Source of the DNA: Actinomycetes bacterium | Lineage (GTDB): Bacteria; Actinomycetota; Acidimicrobiia; Acidimicrobiales; GCA-2861595 | DNA: 42,900 bases | Assembly (NCBI GenBank): GCA_023264975.1 | Contig: JAHFUS010000033.1 | Location: 1 to 42,900, forward strand | Direction: 5' to 3' | Part shown: positions 2,381 through 36,914 of the stretch, in pieces | Numbering within the stretch: position 1 is the stretch's first letter | Layout of the letters: every line of letters starts with the position of its first letter | Program-made: the position numbers and the translations under genes | Notes under the pieces: generated by a model | What the model saw: only the letters and a program-made list of their open reading frames with translations | Told to the model about the DNA's origin: nothing | Databases searched by the model: none

Positions 2381-3841
2381 TCAGCGTAGGGGGCCGAGGA
2401 GTTCGACCAGGGCGGCCACGAGGCCGTCGAGGGTCGACTCCTTCGCCGTGGTCGTGACCCCGACGCCGGCGGCGCGCACCGCGTCGGCCGTGATGGGACC
2501 GATGCAGGCCACCACGGGGGGCATCGCTCCGGCGCCGGCCGCCGTCACCCAGTTGGTGACGGAGGAGGCGGACGTGAAGGCGATGGCGTCGGCCGCCGCC
2601 GCCTCCGCCAGCAGGTCCGGCGTCGGCGTGACAGGGACGGTGCGGTAGGCCTCGACGACGTCCACCGTGAAGCCCCGGTCGCGCAACCCGTCGGGCAGGA
2701 CGTCACGGGCGGTGGCGGCCCGGGGGATGAGCACCGACGAGCCGGCGCCGGCCGGGGCGGGGAACGACTCCAGCAGGGACTCGGCCACGAAGCGCGTCGG
2801 CACCAGGTCCGGCACCAGGCACCGGCGCTCCAGCGCCACCGCCGTACCGGGGCCGATGACGGCGATGCGGGCCGCACCGAAGTCCCGGCCGTCGCGCAGG
2901 TAATCGAGGAACCACTCGACGGCATTGGCCGAGGTGAAGACCACCCAGTCGTAGGACGTGAGGCGGTCGACCGCATCGGCGACGGCGAGGCCGCCGTCGC
3001 CCGGCGGGCCGATGGCGATGGTGGGCACCTCGACCACGTCGGCGCCGGCGGATCGGAGCCGGGCGCTGAGCTCGCCCGCCTGGTGCCCGGCCCGGGTGAC
3101 CACGACCCGCCGGCCGAACAGCGGGAGGCGCTCGAACCACGACAGGTCGAGGCCGGCCACCCGGCCGATCACGATCGTCACCGGCGGCTCCAGATCGGCG
3201 TCGGGGAGCGCGACAAGCGTGGTGCGCAGGCTGCGCTGGTCCGGCCGGGTACCCCACCGCACGGCCAGCACCGGCGTGTCGGGGGCGAGGCCGCCGGCCA
3301 TGAGGCGGGGCACGAAGTCGGTCCGGTGGGCCACGCCCATGAGCACCACGATGGTGCCGCCCGCCCGGCCGAGCGCCTCCCAGTCGGTGGGGCGGTCGGC
3401 GCCGTGCTCGCGGTGGCCCGTGAGCACGGTGAACGACGTGGACAGCCCCCGGTGGGTGAGTGGCACGCCGGCGTAAGCCGGCGCCGCGAGTGCGGCCGAC
3501 ACGCCCGGCACCACCTCGAAGGGCACACCCGCGTCCAGGAGGGCCAGCGCCTCCTCGCCGCCCCGCCCGAACACGTACGGGTCGCCGCCCTTGAGGCGCA
3601 CCACCTGGCGTCCCGCCGACCCGTGCTCCACCAGCAGGGCGTTGATCGCCTCCTGGTCGACGGGCCCACCGGGACGCTTCCCCACATCGATGCGCTCGGC
3701 CTTCGCCGGCGCCAGGTCGAGCAACGAGGCCGACGCCAGCCGGTCGTGCAGCACCACGTCGGCCCCTGCCAGCACCTCGGCGCCCCGCACGGTGAGAAGG
3801 CCCGGGTCCCCCGGGCCCGCTCCCACCAGGTACACGGTCAC
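2381..3841 (-). CDS. hemD: uroporphyrinogen-III C-methyltransferase / uroporphyrinogen-III synthase fusion
   Basis: A 486-residue bifunctional protein. Residues about 1-240 are a SUMT (CobA) domain that methylates uroporphyrinogen III to precorrin-2: VGAGPGDPGLLTVRG is the SAM loop, followed by VVRLKGGDPYVFGRGGEE and VVPGVSAALAAPAYAGVPLTHRG motifs. Residues about 250-486 are a HemD domain, with WVVFTSANAVEWF and AIAFTSASSVTNW, which closes hydroxymethylbilane into uroporphyrinogen III. The open frame continues far upstream without making family-like sequence, so the GTG at 3841 that begins VTVYLVGAG is chosen. The fusion places the entry to siroheme and cobalamin next to the haem precursor step. 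A 91-base gap with a hairpin separates it from hemC. Confidence 0.93.
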   Translation of the reverse strand: MTVYLVGAGPGDPGLLTVRGAEVLAGADVVLHDRLASASLLDLAPAKAERIDVGKRPGGPVDQEAINALLVEHGSAGRQVVRLKGGDPYVFGRGGEEALALLDAGVPFEVVPGVSAALAAPAYAGVPLTHRGLSTSFTVLTGHREHGADRPTDWEALGRAGGTIVVLMGVAHRTDFVPRLMAGGLAPDTPVLAVRWGTRPDQRSLRTTLVALPDADLEPPVTIVIGRVAGLDLSWFERLPLFGRRVVVTRAGHQAGELSARLRSAGADVVEVPTIAIGPPGDGGLAVADAVDRLTSYDWVVFTSANAVEWFLDYLRDGRDFGAARIAVIGPGTAVALERRCLVPDLVPTRFVAESLLESFPAPAGAGSSVLIPRAATARDVLPDGLRDRGFTVDVVEAYRTVPVTPTPDLLAEAAAADAIAFTSASSVTNWVTAAGAGAMPPVVACIGPITADAVRAAGVGVTTTAKESTLDGLVAALVELLGPLR

Positions 3842-3866
3842 GGCGCCCGCCGACCGGCCCCGCCCG

Positions 3867-3914
3867 TTCTGGTACCGGGAATCGACCGGTGGCGGTCGGT
3901 TTCCGATACCAGAA
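3867..3914. repeat. 48-bp imperfect inverted repeat between hemC and hemD, also found after serS
   Basis: Two 24-base arms (3867-3890 and 3891-3914) pair at about 19 of 24 positions, starting TTCTGGTACCGGGAATCGACC on the left. A related palindrome with the same core (GAAACCGAC with GGTAC and TTCT ends) lies at 32797-32846 just behind serS. Both begin within 20 bases of a minus-strand stop codon. There is no U tract, so it is either a GC-type terminator or processing hairpin, or a small extragenic palindromic repeat family. Confidence 0.6.
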
Positions 3915-3932
3915 GGAGGCGGGCGGGGTGGG

Positions 3933-4832
3933 TCATGCGAGGCCCTGGAGGCTTTCGAGGAGCCAGGCGCCGCCGGACCGGTCGAGGAGGCGACGGGCGA
4001 GGGAGCGGCCGAGGGAGTCCGGGTCGTCCCCGGTGTCGGTGGCCTGGAGGACGACGTGGCCGTCGAGGGTGGCGAGCATGGCGGTGAGCGTGACGGTGTC
4101 GCCCGGGCCGACGGTGGCGTAGGCGGCCACCGGCAGGTCGCAGCCACCGCCCAGCTCCCGGAGGTAGGCCCGCTCGGCGTCGACGGCCAGGCGGCTCGGC
4201 CGGTGCTCGAGAAGGGCGAGGGCGGACAGCACCTCGGTGTCGCCCTCCCGCGCCTCGAGGGCGAGGGCGCCCTGACCGACCTGGGGGAGCATGAGGGCCG
4301 GGTCGATGAGGTCAGCCTGCTCCGAGCGGCCCAGGCGGACAAGGGCGGCGGCGGCGACCACGATGGCGTCGACGTCGGCGGCCTTGCGCAGGCGGGTCCC
4401 GATGTTGCCACGCAGGCCGCTGTAGGTGAGGTCCGGGCGCAGCGAGGCCAGCTGGGCCCGCCGGCGCACCGAGCCGGTGGCGACGCGGGCACCGGGCGGC
4501 AGGCCGGCGAGGGTGCAGCCCACCAGGGCGTCGCGGGGATCTTCGCGCTCGGGCACGGCCGCCAGCACCAGGCCGGGCGGCGGCAGCGCCGGCAGGTCCT
4601 TGGCCGAGTGGACGGCGAAGTCGGCCCGGCCGTCGAGGACGGCCGCCTGCACCTCCTTGACGAACACGCCCCGGCCGCCGATGTCCCCGATGGGGACGTC
4701 CTGGCGGCGGTCGCCCATCGTCTCCACCACCACCAGCTCGACCGGCCGGTCGATGAGCGACGCCACCGAGCGGGTCTGGGCCAGGGCCAGGGCGCTGCCA
4801 CGGGTGGCGGCCCGGAGCGGCCGGGATGCCAT
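3933..4832 (-). CDS. hemC: hydroxymethylbilane synthase (porphobilinogen deaminase)
   Basis: The 299-residue enzyme polymerises four porphobilinogens into hydroxymethylbilane. Clear family blocks are LRAATRGSALALAQT at the N terminus, DFAVHSAKDLPALPPPGL with the catalytic aspartate region, GSVRRRAQL and YSGLRGNIGTRLRK for substrate binding, and ELGGGCDLPVAAYA carrying the dipyrromethane cofactor cysteine (about C231). The ATG at 4832 shares one base with the hemA stop (TAATG), which implies translational coupling. It lies third after rex in the operon. Confidence 0.97.
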   Translation of the reverse strand: MASRPLRAATRGSALALAQTRSVASLIDRPVELVVVETMGDRRQDVPIGDIGGRGVFVKEVQAAVLDGRADFAVHSAKDLPALPPPGLVLAAVPEREDPRDALVGCTLAGLPPGARVATGSVRRRAQLASLRPDLTYSGLRGNIGTRLRKAADVDAIVVAAAALVRLGRSEQADLIDPALMLPQVGQGALALEAREGDTEVLSALALLEHRPSRLAVDAERAYLRELGGGCDLPVAAYATVGPGDTVTLTAMLATLDGHVVLQATDTGDDPDSLGRSLARRLLDRSGGAWLLESLQGLA

Positions 4833-20753: not shown

Positions 20754-21230
20754 GTGGACGTCGAGGTGATCCGCAGCCCCCGCAGGCGCAAGACGGTGCA
20801 GGCCCGGAAGGTGGACGGCGTCCTCCGGGTCTCCGTCCCGGCCTCCATGAGCAAGGCCGACGAGCAGCGCCACGTGGCCGAGATGGTGCGGCGCATGGAG
20901 CGCCGGTCGGAGTCGTCGGTCGTCGACCTGACGGGCAGAGCCGCCGCCCTGGCGTCGGCCCACGGCCTGCCCCGGCCCGCGTCGATCCGCTGGGTCGACA
21001 ACCAGGAGTGGCGGTGGGGGTCGTGCACCCCGTCCGACGGCACGATCCGCATCTCGACCCGCCTGGCCACCGAACCCTCCTGGGTGCTCGACTACGTGAT
21101 CATGCACGAGCTGGCCCACCTGGTCGTCCCCGGGCACGGCCCCGCCTTCTGGCGGGTGGTAGAGCGCTACCCCCGCACCGAGCGGGCGCGCGGCTTCCTC
21201 ATGGCCCGGGGGCTGGAGCACGCCGGATGA
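20754..21230 (+). CDS. YgjP-type M48 metallopeptidase (DUF45)
   Basis: A 158-residue soluble metalloprotease. DVEVIRSPRRRKTVQARKVDGVLRVSVPA is the family N terminus, WRWGSCTPSDGTIRIS the central block, and YVIMHELAHLVVPGHGPAFWRVVERYP contains the HELAH zinc site (about residue 118) and the second GHG part. The GTG at 20754 lies eight bases after TACCTT (20740-20745). Its TGA overlaps the ATG of a 15-residue micro-ORF that leads to the next gene. Confidence 0.9.
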   Translation: MDVEVIRSPRRRKTVQARKVDGVLRVSVPASMSKADEQRHVAEMVRRMERRSESSVVDLTGRAAALASAHGLPRPASIRWVDNQEWRWGSCTPSDGTIRISTRLATEPSWVLDYVIMHELAHLVVPGHGPAFWRVVERYPRTERARGFLMARGLEHAG

Positions 21231-21274
21231 GTGATCCGGGCGCCCGGTCGACAGGCTCGACGGTGCGCCGGTGA
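21227..21274 (+). CDS. 15-residue bridging micro-ORF
   Basis: The ATG at 21227 overlaps the TGA of the metallopeptidase gene (ATGA) and the frame MSDPGARSTGSTVRR stops with a TGA at 21272-21274 that overlaps the GTG of the next gene (GTGA). It can hand ribosomes from one gene to the other. Its first residues resemble those of the downstream protein (MSDPAANG). It also contains GTCGA-CAGGC-TCGAC, a small hairpin. Whether the peptide has a role is unknown. Confidence 0.4.
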   Translation: MSDPGARSTGSTVRR

Positions 21275-27441: not shown

Positions 27442-27840
27442 TCATGAGGAGAACGTGACGATGGTGAGCGTGCCGTAGGCGAGGAGGGCGAACGACACCG
27501 AGTACAGGACCGCCTTGGTGGCGGCCCGCTTGACCGGCGAGCGCACGTAGTCGTCGATGATCCAGCGCAGGCCGTTGAGGCCGTGCAGCAGCGCCAGCAC
27601 GAGCAGGGCCCCGTCGAACAGGCGCCACAGCGGGTTGTCCCAGCGCTCGGCCACGAAGCGGGCGTCGGTGTCCGTGACGTCGTTGAGGATGTGGGTGATC
27701 GAGAAATGGACGAGGGCCAGGAACACCAGCACCAGGCCCGAGATCCGCATGAAGAACCACGACCACACCTCGCTGTTCTGGCGGGGGCGGCGCTGCTGCG
27801 GCGTGCCCCGGTCGGCCGGCGTGGCGGTGGGCGCGCTCAT
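27442..27840 (-). CDS. sdhD: succinate dehydrogenase membrane anchor subunit
   Basis: A 132-residue protein with three membrane helices (WFFMRISGLVLVFLALVHFSITHIL, LFDGALLVLALLHGLNGLRWII, VLYSVSFALLAYGTLTIV). The conserved HxxxxxH and LLHGLNGLR motifs for haem and quinone binding mark SdhD. The ATG at 27840 overlaps the TGA of a 30-residue micro-ORF that begins inside the sdhC stop. sdhA and sdhB do not follow; the next gene is the esterase. Confidence 0.92.
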   Translation of the reverse strand: MSAPTATPADRGTPQQRRPRQNSEVWSWFFMRISGLVLVFLALVHFSITHILNDVTDTDARFVAERWDNPLWRLFDGALLVLALLHGLNGLRWIIDDYVRSPVKRAATKAVLYSVSFALLAYGTLTIVTFSS

Positions 27841-27929
27841 CGGCCCGCCATCCCTGCGGAATGGCCGACCCATGGTTCTTCCCCCTCGAAGGGCCGCCCG
27901 GGCCCCGCCCGCCCTTCGGGCGTGCTCAC
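27837..27929 (-). CDS. 30-residue bridging micro-ORF between sdhC and sdhD, repeat-derived
   Basis: A GTG at 27929 overlaps the sdhC stop (GTGA) and the frame ends in a TGA overlapping the sdhD ATG (ATGA). The product starts VSTPEGRAGPGRPFEG and is Gly/Pro/Arg-rich. A 27-base block (27891-27917) is 25/27 identical to one in the same position of the 17-residue micro-ORF at 36861-36914. It looks like a mobile or repetitive linker that keeps ribosome traffic between the two genes. Confidence 0.5.
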   Translation of the reverse strand: MSTPEGRAGPGRPFEGEEPWVGHSAGMAGR

Positions 27930-28306
27930 AGGATGCGCCCGTCGATGAAGGGCTTCATGATCACGTAACCGCCGACCAGCGTGAACACGATGGTGATGAA
28001 CAGCACCGTGCTCAGGGCCCGCTTCTCGTTGCGGATGCCGCCCGGGAAGAAGTCGACCATCACGATGCGCAGGCCGTTGAGCGAGTGGAAGACGAGGCCG
28101 AACAGCAGGCCCACCTCGAACAGGCGCAGCACCACGTTGCCGTACAACTCGTGGACCTCGTCGTACAGGTCGGGTCGGGAGACGAGCGACACGTCGATGA
28201 TGTGCAGGAGGAGGAAGAAGAAGACGAGGAAGCCGGTGATGCGGTGGGTGACGAACGCCCACTGCCCCGAACGGCCCCGGTAGACGCTTCCCCTCCCGGC
28301 GCTCAA
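27926..28306 (-). CDS. sdhC: succinate dehydrogenase cytochrome b subunit
   Basis: A 126-residue three-helix protein: GSVYRGRSGQWAFVTHRITGFLVFFFLLLHIIDVSL at the N terminus with the quinone-site HR and haem-ligand histidine, then GLLFGLVFHSLNGLRIVMVDF and TVLFITIVFTLVGGYVIM. The likely start is TTG at 28306, overlapping the stop of the 43-residue ORF upstream (TTGA) and giving the family N terminus; an upstream GTG would overlap that ORF. It ends overlapping a bridging micro-ORF before sdhD. Confidence 0.9.
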   Translation of the reverse strand: MSAGRGSVYRGRSGQWAFVTHRITGFLVFFFLLLHIIDVSLVSRPDLYDEVHELYGNVVLRLFEVGLLFGLVFHSLNGLRIVMVDFFPGGIRNEKRALSTVLFITIVFTLVGGYVIMKPFIDGRIL

Positions 28307-28434
28307 CGCCGCCTCCGTCGCCGCACCCAGCGGCCCGCCCACATGGTGGACGACAGTACGTAGAGGGCGAACGCGGTGATCAGCAGGGTGACGGCGCCGA
28401 GGGCGGTGGCGAACAGCGCCTGGGCCGTTGTCAT
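28303..28434 (-). CDS. 43-residue single-pass membrane protein heading the sdhCD operon
   Basis: ATG 28434 opens a frame with a helix ALGAVTLLITAFALYVLS and a C-terminal tail of WVRRRRRR, ending in a TGA that overlaps the sdhC TTG. A TAGCGT -10 element (28443-28448) ends eight bases before the ATG, the same leaderless layout as other genes here, which is the main evidence that it is expressed and that the operon starts at it. It is not a known Sdh subunit; the arginine tail predicts an N-out, C-in topology. Role unknown. Confidence 0.6.
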   Translation of the reverse strand: MTTAQALFATALGAVTLLITAFALYVLSSTMWAGRWVRRRRRR

Positions 28435-28513
28435 CAGAAGCGACGCTACCCGGCGTCCGTTGGCCACGGTGCAACCTGGCGCCGGTGTGACGCCGACCGG
28501 TTGCGACCCACGG

Positions 28514-29384: not shown

Positions 29385-30167
29385 TCAGGTGCCGTTGTCG
29401 GGCTTGACGAGGCCTTCGAGCCACAGGGGGAGGTCGTCGTGGTGCACGCCGAGGCTCACGCCGGTGGCCACCAGGTCGGCAGGTGGCCCGTCGAAGTACA
29501 CCTTGCCCCGCCGCATCACCACCACCCGGTCGAGGTCGTCGGCCACGGCGCCGAGTTCGTGGGAGACCAGCAGCACGGCGGCCGAGTGCTCGGCCACCAG
29601 GTGGGTGAGCGAGTCACGGAAGCGATGCTGGGACTCGGCGTCGACCCCGGCCACCGGCTCGTCCAGCACCAGCAGCTCGGGCTGGGCGGCCAGCGCCTTG
29701 GCGATGAACGCCCGCTGCTGCTGGCCGCCCGACAGCTCGCTGACCCGGCGGCGCCGGTGCTCGAGCAGGGCGACCGACGACATGGCGTGCTCGATCTCGG
29801 TGCGATCGGCGGCGTCGAAGCGCCGGCGCCATCCGCTGCGGGCCAGACGACCGGCTCCCACGACCTCCTCCACGGTCGCCGGCATCTCCCGGGCCAGGGC
29901 GGCCCGCTGGGGCACGTAGCCGAGGCGCCACCGATGGCGCAGGTCGGCCGGCGCAGCGCCGAAGAGGCGCACCTCCCCGGCCCGTGGCTTCAGCAGACCC
30001 AACAGGCAGCGCAGGAGCGTGGACTTGCCCGAGCCGTTCGGTCCCACCAGGGCCACGAACTCACCCGGCGCCACCGTGAGGCTCACCCCGTCGAGGACAG
30101 GCTCGTGGCCGTAGGAGAAGGACAGGTTCTCGGCTTCGAGGACGGGCTCTGCAGCGTGGTCATTCAT
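29385..30167 (-). CDS. znuC: zinc ABC transporter ATP-binding protein, system 1
   Basis: A 260-residue ATPase: Walker A GPNGSGKSTLL, Q-loop YVPQRA, signature LSGGQQQRAFIAKALA, Walker B LLVLDEPVAGVD and switch SHELG. The ATG at 30167 is chosen because GGGAAG lies seven bases upstream; TTG 30182 and ATG 30173 are alternatives. It stands between the binding protein gene and the permease gene on the same strand. Confidence 0.93.
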   Translation of the reverse strand: MNDHAAEPVLEAENLSFSYGHEPVLDGVSLTVAPGEFVALVGPNGSGKSTLLRCLLGLLKPRAGEVRLFGAAPADLRHRWRLGYVPQRAALAREMPATVEEVVGAGRLARSGWRRRFDAADRTEIEHAMSSVALLEHRRRRVSELSGGQQQRAFIAKALAAQPELLVLDEPVAGVDAESQHRFRDSLTHLVAEHSAAVLLVSHELGAVADDLDRVVVMRRGKVYFDGPPADLVATGVSLGVHHDDLPLWLEGLVKPDNGT

Positions 30168-30216
30168 GAGCATGCTTCCCAATACCCTGGGTCAGGGTCG
30201 CCACCGGTGCGCTCTC

Positions 30217-31068
30217 TCATGTGCAGCCGAGGGCGGTGCGGAGCACCCCCAGGTTGCGCCGCATGGCATCTCCATAGCCGCCATCGAGGCGGCCTTCAAG
30301 CGGATCGAGCACGGCAACCTTCACCCCTGCCTCGCGGGCCAGCGCCCGGGCGACCCTGGGCGACACGAGGCGCTCGGTGAACACGGTCGTCACTCCTTTG
30401 GCGCGGACCAGGTCGACGAGGTCGGCCAGCCGGTCAGGGTCGGGTTCCGCCTCGGGGGAGATGCCGGTGATCGGCTCCTGGACGAGGTCGTACCGACGCG
30501 CCAGGTGCCCGAACGCCTCGTGGGCGGTCACGAGCTCCCGGCGCTCGCAGGTCGCCAGCCCGGCGGCCATCTCCTGGTCGAGGGCGGCCAGCTCGTCACG
30601 GAAGGCGGCGGCTCGCCGGCGGTACCCATCCGCGCCCGCCGCGTCGATCGCCACCAGCTCCCGGTAGACCACCGTCGCCGCCTCGGCGAGGCGCTGCGGG
30701 TCGAGCCAGATGTGCGGGTCCTTGCCGTCCTGCGCCGTCAGGAGGTCGACCGCCCTGCCCGCCCGCCGCGACGCCGCGGCCAGGCCGGGCTGGAACCCGC
30801 CGCCGAGGTAGAGCACCAGATCGGCGTCGTCCACGGCGTCGATCTCGTCGGACGTCAACTCGAGATCGTGGGGCTCGGCGCCCGGCGGTGTGAGGTCGGT
30901 GACGGCGACGCCATCCCCGCCGATGCGCTCGGCGACCTCGGCCAGGCGGGCGAAGCCGGCCACGACCCGCACCCGACCGTCGTCGCCGGCCCCGCCCCCG
31001 GAGCCGCAGGCGGCCATGGCCGCGGAGAGGAGCACACTCGACGCGAGGACGGCGATCGAACGGCGCAC
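30217..31068 (-). CDS. znuA: zinc-binding substrate-binding lipoprotein, system 1
   Basis: A 283-residue lipoprotein with signal peptide and lipobox (SAAMAAC). Metal ligands of the cluster-9 family are visible as histidines in AEPHDLELTSDEID, GKDPHIWLDPQR and VTAHEAFGHLARRYDL, with an acidic fourth ligand in the FTERL to LDPLEG region. Three histidines favour zinc. GTG 31068 lies seven bases after TAGGCT (31076-31081), so the mRNA is probably leaderless. A Zur-type palindrome sits just upstream of that element. Confidence 0.92.
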   Translation of the reverse strand: MRRSIAVLASSVLLSAAMAACGSGGGAGDDGRVRVVAGFARLAEVAERIGGDGVAVTDLTPPGAEPHDLELTSDEIDAVDDADLVLYLGGGFQPGLAAASRRAGRAVDLLTAQDGKDPHIWLDPQRLAEAATVVYRELVAIDAAGADGYRRRAAAFRDELAALDQEMAAGLATCERRELVTAHEAFGHLARRYDLVQEPITGISPEAEPDPDRLADLVDLVRAKGVTTVFTERLVSPRVARALAREAGVKVAVLDPLEGRLDGGYGDAMRRNLGVLRTALGCT

Positions 31069-35976: not shown

Positions 35977-36864
35977 TCAGCGGTGGACGGCGGGCCCCGT
36001 CGCAGTGAGCGTCGCCGGCGCCGCGTGGGCGTCGAAGTGGGCGACCCGACGGCGACCCCGCACGCCGGTCGCCGCGAACACCACGGCGAACAGGGCGGCG
36101 CCGACAAGGACGATGGTGGGGCCCGACTGCACGTCGAGGTGGTAGCTGAGGTTCATGCCGAAGAAGCCGCACAGCGCCCCGATCCCCGTGGCCAGCACCA
36201 GCATGCGGCCGAAGGAGTTGGTGAGCATGCGGGCGACGGTGGCGGGGATGACGAGGGTGGCGGCGATGAGGGTGACGCCGAGCACCTGCATGGTGGCCAC
36301 GATCGAAAGGGCCAGGACAAGCATCAGCAGAGCGTCGATGCGGCTGGTCGAGACGCCCGACACCTCGGCGACATCGGGGTCGAAGGTGGCGAACAGCAGG
36401 GGCCGGTAGGCGAAGAACACGACGGCGGCGGCGACGGCGGCCACGGCCACCACCGCCCAGACATCGGCGGTGGACACGCCGAGGATCGACCCGAACAGGG
36501 CGGCGTCGAAGCTGCGCCCGGCCCGTCCGAAGACGGCGAACAGGGCCAGGCCCAGTGCGAAGGAAGCGGTGGTGATGACGCCGATGGCTGCGTCGGCGCC
36601 TATCACCCGGCGCCTCGTCACCCCGTTCACCATGAGCGCCGACGCCACGCCCCACACTCCGGCGCCGAGCAGGAAGTTCACCCCGAGCAGGGCCGACGCG
36701 GCGAAGCCACCGAAGATGGCGTGCGACAGGCCGTGGCCGATGTAGCTCATCCCCTTGAGCACCACGTATACGCCGATGAGCCCGCACAGGGCGCCGGCGA
36801 CGGTGGCCACCATCAACCCGTTGCGGAAGAACTCGAACTCGAAGGGGCGCAGCAACTCGCTCAT
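35977..36864 (-). CDS. metal ABC transporter permease (ABC-3 family), system 2
   Basis: A 295-residue protein with about eight helices and the family motifs GVYVVLKGMSYIGHGLSHAIFGGFAAS and VSTSRIDALLMLVLALSIVATMQVLGVTLIAATLVIPATVARML. It is the last gene of a second metal uptake operon. The ATG at 36864 overlaps the stop of a 17-residue micro-ORF (ATGA), which itself begins in the ATPase stop. Metal specificity (zinc, manganese or iron) cannot be read from the permease. Confidence 0.92.
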   Translation of the reverse strand: MSELLRPFEFEFFRNGLMVATVAGALCGLIGVYVVLKGMSYIGHGLSHAIFGGFAASALLGVNFLLGAGVWGVASALMVNGVTRRRVIGADAAIGVITTASFALGLALFAVFGRAGRSFDAALFGSILGVSTADVWAVVAVAAVAAAVVFFAYRPLLFATFDPDVAEVSGVSTSRIDALLMLVLALSIVATMQVLGVTLIAATLVIPATVARMLTNSFGRMLVLATGIGALCGFFGMNLSYHLDVQSGPTIVLVGAALFAVVFAATGVRGRRRVAHFDAHAAPATLTATGPAVHR

Positions 36865-36914
36865 TCCCGCTCAGGGGGCCGCTCGGGCCCCGCTCGCCCT
36901 TCTGATTCGCTCAT
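36861..36914 (-). CDS. 17-residue bridging micro-ORF between ATPase and permease genes, repeat-derived
   Basis: ATG 36914 overlaps the ATPase gene stop (ATGA) and the TGA at 36863-36861 overlaps the permease ATG (ATGA). The product is MSESEGRAGPERPPERE. The block 36876-36902 is 25/27 identical to 27891-27917 in the sdhC-sdhD micro-ORF, at the same offset of 12 bases from the start codon, and both encode EGRAGPxRP. Confidence 0.5.
   Translation of the reverse strand: MSESEGRAGPERPPERE

Follow-up and report, generated by a model that had tools for sequence, protein, structure and literature searches.

The closest described systems are the MIRUs of mycobacteria (Supply 1997, as covered in a review, PMC12548453), which are short and seemingly mobile repeats that insert at start codons and carry an internal ORF coupled at -4 nt. 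In the view of the same review, this architecture probably serves to spare the host gene damage. Published MIRU unit sizes are 77 and 53 bp (PMC2453075, PMC4213456). The RU elements of enterobacteria are small MITE-like repeats that are readable as ORFs (PMC2759123). Ordinary translational coupling proceeds by termination-reinitiation at ATGA or GTGA overlaps (PMC6728339, PMC10666635).

The element described here occupies the junction between sdhC and sdhD in a 42,900-nucleotide stretch of DNA (the window) from an Acidimicrobiia genome of 3.78 Mb in 139 contigs. The spacer is probably (at roughly 80%) one copy of a dispersed repeat, modular and non-autonomous, that entered a 4-nt GTGA overlap and relays ribosomes across itself by termination-reinitiation. 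Gene calls are our own, made from codon usage (codon log-odds) on the MAG contigs, with inferred gene starts, and flanking genes are named by inspection save where tested against Pfam.

The sdhC-sdhD junction

The upstream gene, sdhC (27926 to 28474, minus strand), encodes a succinate dehydrogenase membrane subunit (Pfam Sdh_cyt, E = 2.9e-17) and ends on the minus strand in ATCCTGTGA, with codons ATC CTG TGA. Its stop is shared with the GTGA start of a 30-codon relay micro-ORF (27837 to 27929, minus strand), whose frame, GTGAGCACGCCC...GCCGATGA (translated, MSTPEGRAGPGRPFEGEEPWVGHSAGMAGR and stop), terminates in the ATGA of the downstream gene, sdhD (27442 to 27840, minus strand; Sdh_cyt, E = 1.9e-15). 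The first sdhD codons are ATG AGC GCG (MSAPTATPADRG...), and this start matches that of SdhD in the related genomes G001 and G003. Direct reading of the sequence confirms the 30-residue frame given in the preliminary description. From GTGA to ATGA the distance is 89 nt, a length of the form 3n+2, and the element fills all of it; it is thus larger than the 27-base core recognized earlier, and its 3' half is itself repeated.

The element has two modules. The 5' module (27880 to 27929, minus strand; GTGAGCACGCCCGAAGGGCGGGCGGGGCCCGGGCGGCCC...) belongs to family A (sequence model R2, E = 2.3e-12) and has the core hairpin GGGCC-CGGGC-GGCCC. The 3' module (27837 to 27877, minus strand) terminates exactly on the sdhD ATGA and is kin to the 3' hairpin of a second family, B. 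When a profile built from 26 family B 3' halves was run against both strands of the whole window, the sdhC-sdhD spacer was the top match (E = 8e-4), with the same terminal TGA; the element is accordingly read as a composite, with its 5' module from family A and its 3' hairpin of the family B type. A strict sequence search with the 3' hairpin retrieved nothing except itself. The predicted fold of the junction places the sdhD ATG in a paired region at the base of the hairpin. The element also contains an alternative ATG in the sdhD frame, at 27873, which is preceded by GGGGGAAG and stands 33 nt before the likely sdhD start; automatic gene calling may begin sdhD there, with 11 extra N-terminal residues.

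A second, short family A element is present at 36861 to 36914 (minus strand; R2, E = 1.8e-14), between an ABC ATPase gene and the downstream gene for an ABC-3 metal transporter permease (35977 to 36864, minus strand; Pfam ABC-3, E = 2.6e-61). Its 17-codon relay micro-ORF (MSESEGRAGPERPPERE and stop) has ATGA at both ends. As reported previously, the core at 27891 to 27917 is 25/27 identical to 36876 to 36902, differing at 2 of the 27 positions, and both stretches lie 12 nt past the start of their micro-ORFs. The window holds two matches to the core, against 0.02 expected from shuffling.

Further micro-ORFs in the window include a 32-codon relay (3838 to 3936, minus strand) with a different dispersed palindrome, family C, and two for which no repeat family was recognized: a 15-codon frame (21227 to 21274, plus strand; ATGA to GTGA) and an 18-codon frame (30164 to 30220, minus strand; ATGA to ATGA), each linking two same-strand genes. 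Family C is a near-perfect palindrome of about 50 nt (GTTCTGGTACCGGAAAYCGACCGCC...) found at roughly 15-17 sites in this genome and about 12 in G001. Its sites (L374, L368, L370 and L410; L369 and L377 in G001) include some in relay spacers and others between convergent genes. At the G001 junction orthologous to 3838-3936, the palindrome is the same except for paired changes in its arms; from one species to the other, the letters of the two arms have changed together (TAC/GTA to CAG/CTG).

Family A in this genome and its relatives

Allowing up to three mismatches, the core has seven matches genome-wide, and a reversed control has none. A search with the sequence model gave 10 matches, with E values down to 3e-15, which together with the core matches define nine sites (about nine copies): sdhC-sdhD, ABC ATPase/ABC-3, ccmB-ccmC, dnaX-ybaB, an ABC ATPase-permease pair, plsC/membrane protein, a gene pair on contig C83, fmt-rsmB and a NUDIX gene. 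The flanking genes are codirectional at all nine, and at eight the micro-ORF start overlaps the upstream [AG]TGA stop (GTGA or ATGA). Copies of the core beyond the two in the window thus do lie at same-strand junctions with overlapping stop and start codons, as the preliminary description anticipated. At ccmB-ccmC, two units of 54 nt form an in-frame fusion with CcmC. Copy L176 lacks a start on [AG]TGA, and copy L006 has an early TAG, so the relay is broken there.

A search of 84,980 species for the exact 22-nt core gave 13 matches. Twelve are on Acidimicrobiia/Actinomycetota MAG contigs, all at micro-ORFs starting on DTGA; the other, in Hymenobacter, is attributed to chance. The relative G059 has about 30 sites with 29 distinct open units, which read MSEP(x8)RRAGPERPGAKRQERE and stop, or variants; its micro-ORFs have 17-33 codons, and DTGA is present at both ends in 16 of 22 analysable sites. 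In G033, from the same order, 51-nt tandem units are fused in frame to a prmC-like gene. The tandem units seen measure 86, 51, 54, 65 and 68 nt. The family A model matches 27 of the 397 genomes of the order, and in several of these the core is a plain intergenic repeat away from overlaps, for example just after a tRNA gene. Other families of the order have a related core, GTGGCCCGAGCGGCCCGTGAGCGCAGCGAACAAGAGCGGGAAA, which is scattered through their genomes as an ordinary intergenic repeat (L126, L124, L128 and L116; G347, G262, G201 and G104). In G033 (L036, contig C68), a family A-like unit lies in frame within an SNF2-type helicase gene (...GGQAGPERPSERATG...), which recalls intragenic palindromic elements.

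Between three and four of 10 G059 copies resemble the start of their own downstream gene (first ~36 nt; permutation p = 0.0007 for local and 0.013 for ungapped comparison). A long target-site duplication of the downstream gene start was considered, but tandem duplication followed by deletion of the core (L087) explains the likeness equally well, and target-site duplication is therefore not claimed.

Empty sites in sister genomes

The family A model has no matches in the same-genus genome G001, where the sdhC-sdhD junction is a bare 4-nt GTGA overlap (CTCCTGTGACC; ...CTCCTGTGACCGCG); G003 is identical in this respect, and further relatives have TGATG or TAGTG. Bare overlaps are also found in G001 at fmt-rsmB (GTCGTGACC), the ABC ATPase-permease pair (TCCGTGACC), ccmB-ccmC (ATCGTGAGC) and, fifth, the C83 pair (GCGATGAGG). 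Since these junctions are bare, the repeat appears to have been gained within existing overlaps in the lineage of the genome studied here, and insertion into a pre-existing overlap, a mark of MIRUs, is thus seen at five sites. Loss in G001 instead of gain is possible, but the outgroups too are without the repeat at sdhC-sdhD. The copies and the empty sites together bear out the earlier proposal of a dispersed insert that preserves stop/start hand-over between same-strand, presumably cotranscribed, genes.

At dnaX-ybaB and ABC-3, G001 (L228, L216) and G003 (L229) have short repeat-free spacers that are themselves relays, 8-9 codons long (8 in G001) and bounded on either side by DTGA. In G005, the insert at the sdhC-sdhD junction (L060) is another inverted repeat (CGGAACTACCGGGCATGTTCG ... 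CGAACATGCCCGGTAGTTCCG), and the frame inside it runs to a TAGTG; it may be that hand-over was kept here once more by an unrelated insert.

Family B

Family B was found by scanning same-strand junctions in 423-733 kb of the genome for repeats in relay spacers. Its 68-nt unit ([AG]TGACCGGCCCGGGAGGACGGTCCATCAGCAACTCGCTGGTGCGACATCCCGAAGGGATGGTGCACCAGTGA) is commoner than family A, with about 40 copies, and its pattern has 41 matches in the genome versus none in the reversed control. At 23 of 35 sites the upstream stop is the element's own TGA; such stops are 1.9% of all [AG]TGA (p about 1e-31, with copies treated as independent). Several sites do not start on an [AG]TGA. The genes are codirectional at 26 of the 35 sites, most of the others being unclassified, and the spacer is bridged by one hop at 14, by two hops at 5 and in frame at 2. 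All six family B sites of G003 are bridged by 23 codons. An operon in G033 contains three consecutive 65-nt units and, one gene further, a minimal form, ATGACCGGCCCGGGAGGCCGGTCATGA; tandem spacings in different genomes are 65, 59, 50 and 68 nt. The 3' hairpin has 85% of cells paired and 17 double changes, against 7.9 in shuffles (none of 500 reaches 17). In the G059 units described above under family A, the second hairpin has G-C swapped to C-G in 9 of 22 copies; an AGGAG stands between it and the next start.

Length and frame

If -4 overlaps are kept at both ends of an insert, the unit length must be 3n+2. This is the case for 20 of 25 distinct length classes drawn from several families and genomes (p = 2e-6), and both MIRU sizes, 77 and 53 bp, have this form. 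A frame test independent of any repeat was also applied genome-wide to [AG]TGA stops followed by a spacer: the downstream gene is in the one-hop relay frame in 44 cases versus 14, compared with 51 versus 64 after other stops (Fisher p = 9e-5). These control stops argue that the frame bias is not a trivial property of spacers. Elsewhere, the counts are 11 versus 1 in G059, 8 versus 4 in G007 (non-significant) and 5 versus 7 in G001, where the bias is absent. The bridging rate at the other stops is high (62 of 155), and for this reason the argument is built on the frame test and its control.

Proposed mechanism and alternatives

Sequence comparison shows insertion relative to the sister genomes, placement on [AG]TGA, the length rule, the open frame and the involvement of more than one family. 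Because a 3n+2 length is combined with a frame open from the upstream stop, both borders of a filled site are [AG]TGA overlaps, and ribosomes probably cross the inserts by way of these tiny reading frames. On finishing sdhC, a ribosome would reinitiate at the GTG that overlaps its stop, read the 30 codons across the hairpins, terminate at the sdhD ATGA and begin again there. It is plausible that the paired sdhD start would be opened by the ribosome translating the micro-ORF. With two hand-overs across the insert, the SdhC and SdhD subunits would therefore stay translationally coupled. For this model we infer cotranscription, translation of the micro-ORF, reinitiation and opening of the start codon by a passing ribosome. 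The repeats would either land on translationally coupled junctions, perhaps directed by a targeting enzyme, or survive only there, with selection removing all other insertions.

That last choice bears on the best-surviving alternative, in which there is no insertion bias: copies would arise anywhere, and only the survivors in gene-dense, coupled operons would be seen. Selection by itself could yield the 3n+2 lengths and DTGA ends, and some copies form in-frame fusions (ccmC, prmC) or are intragenic (the SNF2-type helicase copy, L036). Few copies of families A and B, however, lie in the convergent or divergent gaps of G000, where insertion should be harmless, and the ends of the elements fall on [AG]TGA itself. 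We give this account a considerable chance of being correct, although somewhat less than even.

It is less probable, and on balance unlikely, that the elements are REP/BIME-like hairpins acting at the RNA or DNA level (mRNA processing, stability or protein binding), with the open frame kept because untranslated gaps in operons are costly. Paired changes in the hairpins of both modules would fit such a role, as would the related cores that are plain intergenic repeats elsewhere in the order; but this alone predicts neither the exact start on the upstream stop nor the 3n+2 lengths. Mobilization by RAYT was rejected, as the Y1_Tnp transposase domain (PF01797) is present in none of six genomes while control genomes are positive. 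Six copies with flanks gave no Rfam match above the gathering score.

A conserved microprotein gene, in which the MSEP...RAGPERP...QERE peptide matters and the overlaps are incidental, is very improbable. The RAGPERP frame is common to most copies in four genomes, and the variable stretch has an elevated third-position GC content, yet third codon positions are no more variable than first and second ones (0.31 versus 0.42/0.48 in the variable part; 0.03 versus 0.12/0.03 in the core). These codon-position counts led to the rejection of peptide conservation; what is conserved instead is the open-frame connection. The preliminary description had treated the shared EGRAGPxRP coding as meaningful, a reading that does not survive comparison with other genomes: the core translates as SERSERGPSGP in G252/G084, and in two G059 copies (L074 and L086) it has moved to another frame, with the end frame restored and the end still on DTGA. 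Because the core frame varies while both ends match, the peptide is not what is kept, and the unrelated family B peptide obeys the same rule. Chance likeness of GC-rich linkers combined with ordinary overlapping genes would be helped by the very GC-rich genome and its frequent -4 overlaps (91 in 733 kb), but has a negligible probability given reversed controls of 0, model E values to 3e-15, the empty sites, and placement p values of about 1e-25 and 1e-31, in which copies are treated as independent.

Beyond the insertion and relay proposed for sdhC-sdhD, a broader reading is offered tentatively, and we would doubt it somewhat more than we would believe it: several unrelated Acidimicrobiia repeat families could form a distinct "ribosome-relay" class that targets the stop/start overlap and brings a ready-made 3n+2 frame as an adaptor, that has reshaped many operons in some lineages, and whose modules recombine, as in the sdhC-sdhD copy. 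One arithmetic rule across different repeats (3n+2, open frame, DTGA ends) provides a natural replicated test of the bacterial need for ribosome hand-over, and relay repeats would offer simple natural adaptors for gene coupling. In annotation, relay spacers can easily be mistaken for hypothetical genes or for N-terminal extensions.

Comparison with known systems

With ordinary coupling the elements share the proposed hand-over step, which is the same at each end of the insert; they differ in that two serial hand-overs span an inserted repeat, in place of one direct overlap. The REP/BIME elements and their RAYT are similar in that small hairpin repeats are dispersed between genes, whereas the elements here sit on a stop/start overlap with an open frame and not just in intergenic gaps, and RAYT is absent from the six genomes. 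For RU elements, starts and stops placed on the overlaps of neighbouring genes are not mentioned in the abstract that describes them (PMC2759123).

The likeness to MIRUs is closest. Both are short dispersed intercistronic repeats whose internal ORF is coupled to the following gene at -4 nt, and both have 3n+2 units and copies in tandem. Both occur in multiple copies between same-strand genes (all nine family A sites; 26 of the 35 family B sites codirectional), and the internal small ORF overlaps the upstream stop and the downstream start at sdhC-sdhD, at 36861-36914 and in most copies of families A and B. The preliminary description's "new kind of linker element" must be qualified accordingly, as the mycobacterial MIRUs of 1997 share this architecture (PMC12548453). 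No report of such elements in Acidimicrobiia was found in the literature searched, largely open-access papers; this is weak evidence. As far as can be told, the novelty lies in the lineage, in the occurrence of several families and modular joins within a single genome, and in the frame rule measured here. The elements differ from MIRUs in belonging to another bacterial class, in their unit lengths of 50-98 nt, in having more than one family and modular joins within one genome, and in their strong hairpins and, in the G059 version, an RBS-like AGGAG. They would thus work like MIRUs, to which they are likened by architecture and not by sequence, and they are not filed as members of that group; the resemblance suggests that a MIRU-style life inside operons is not a mycobacterial oddity.
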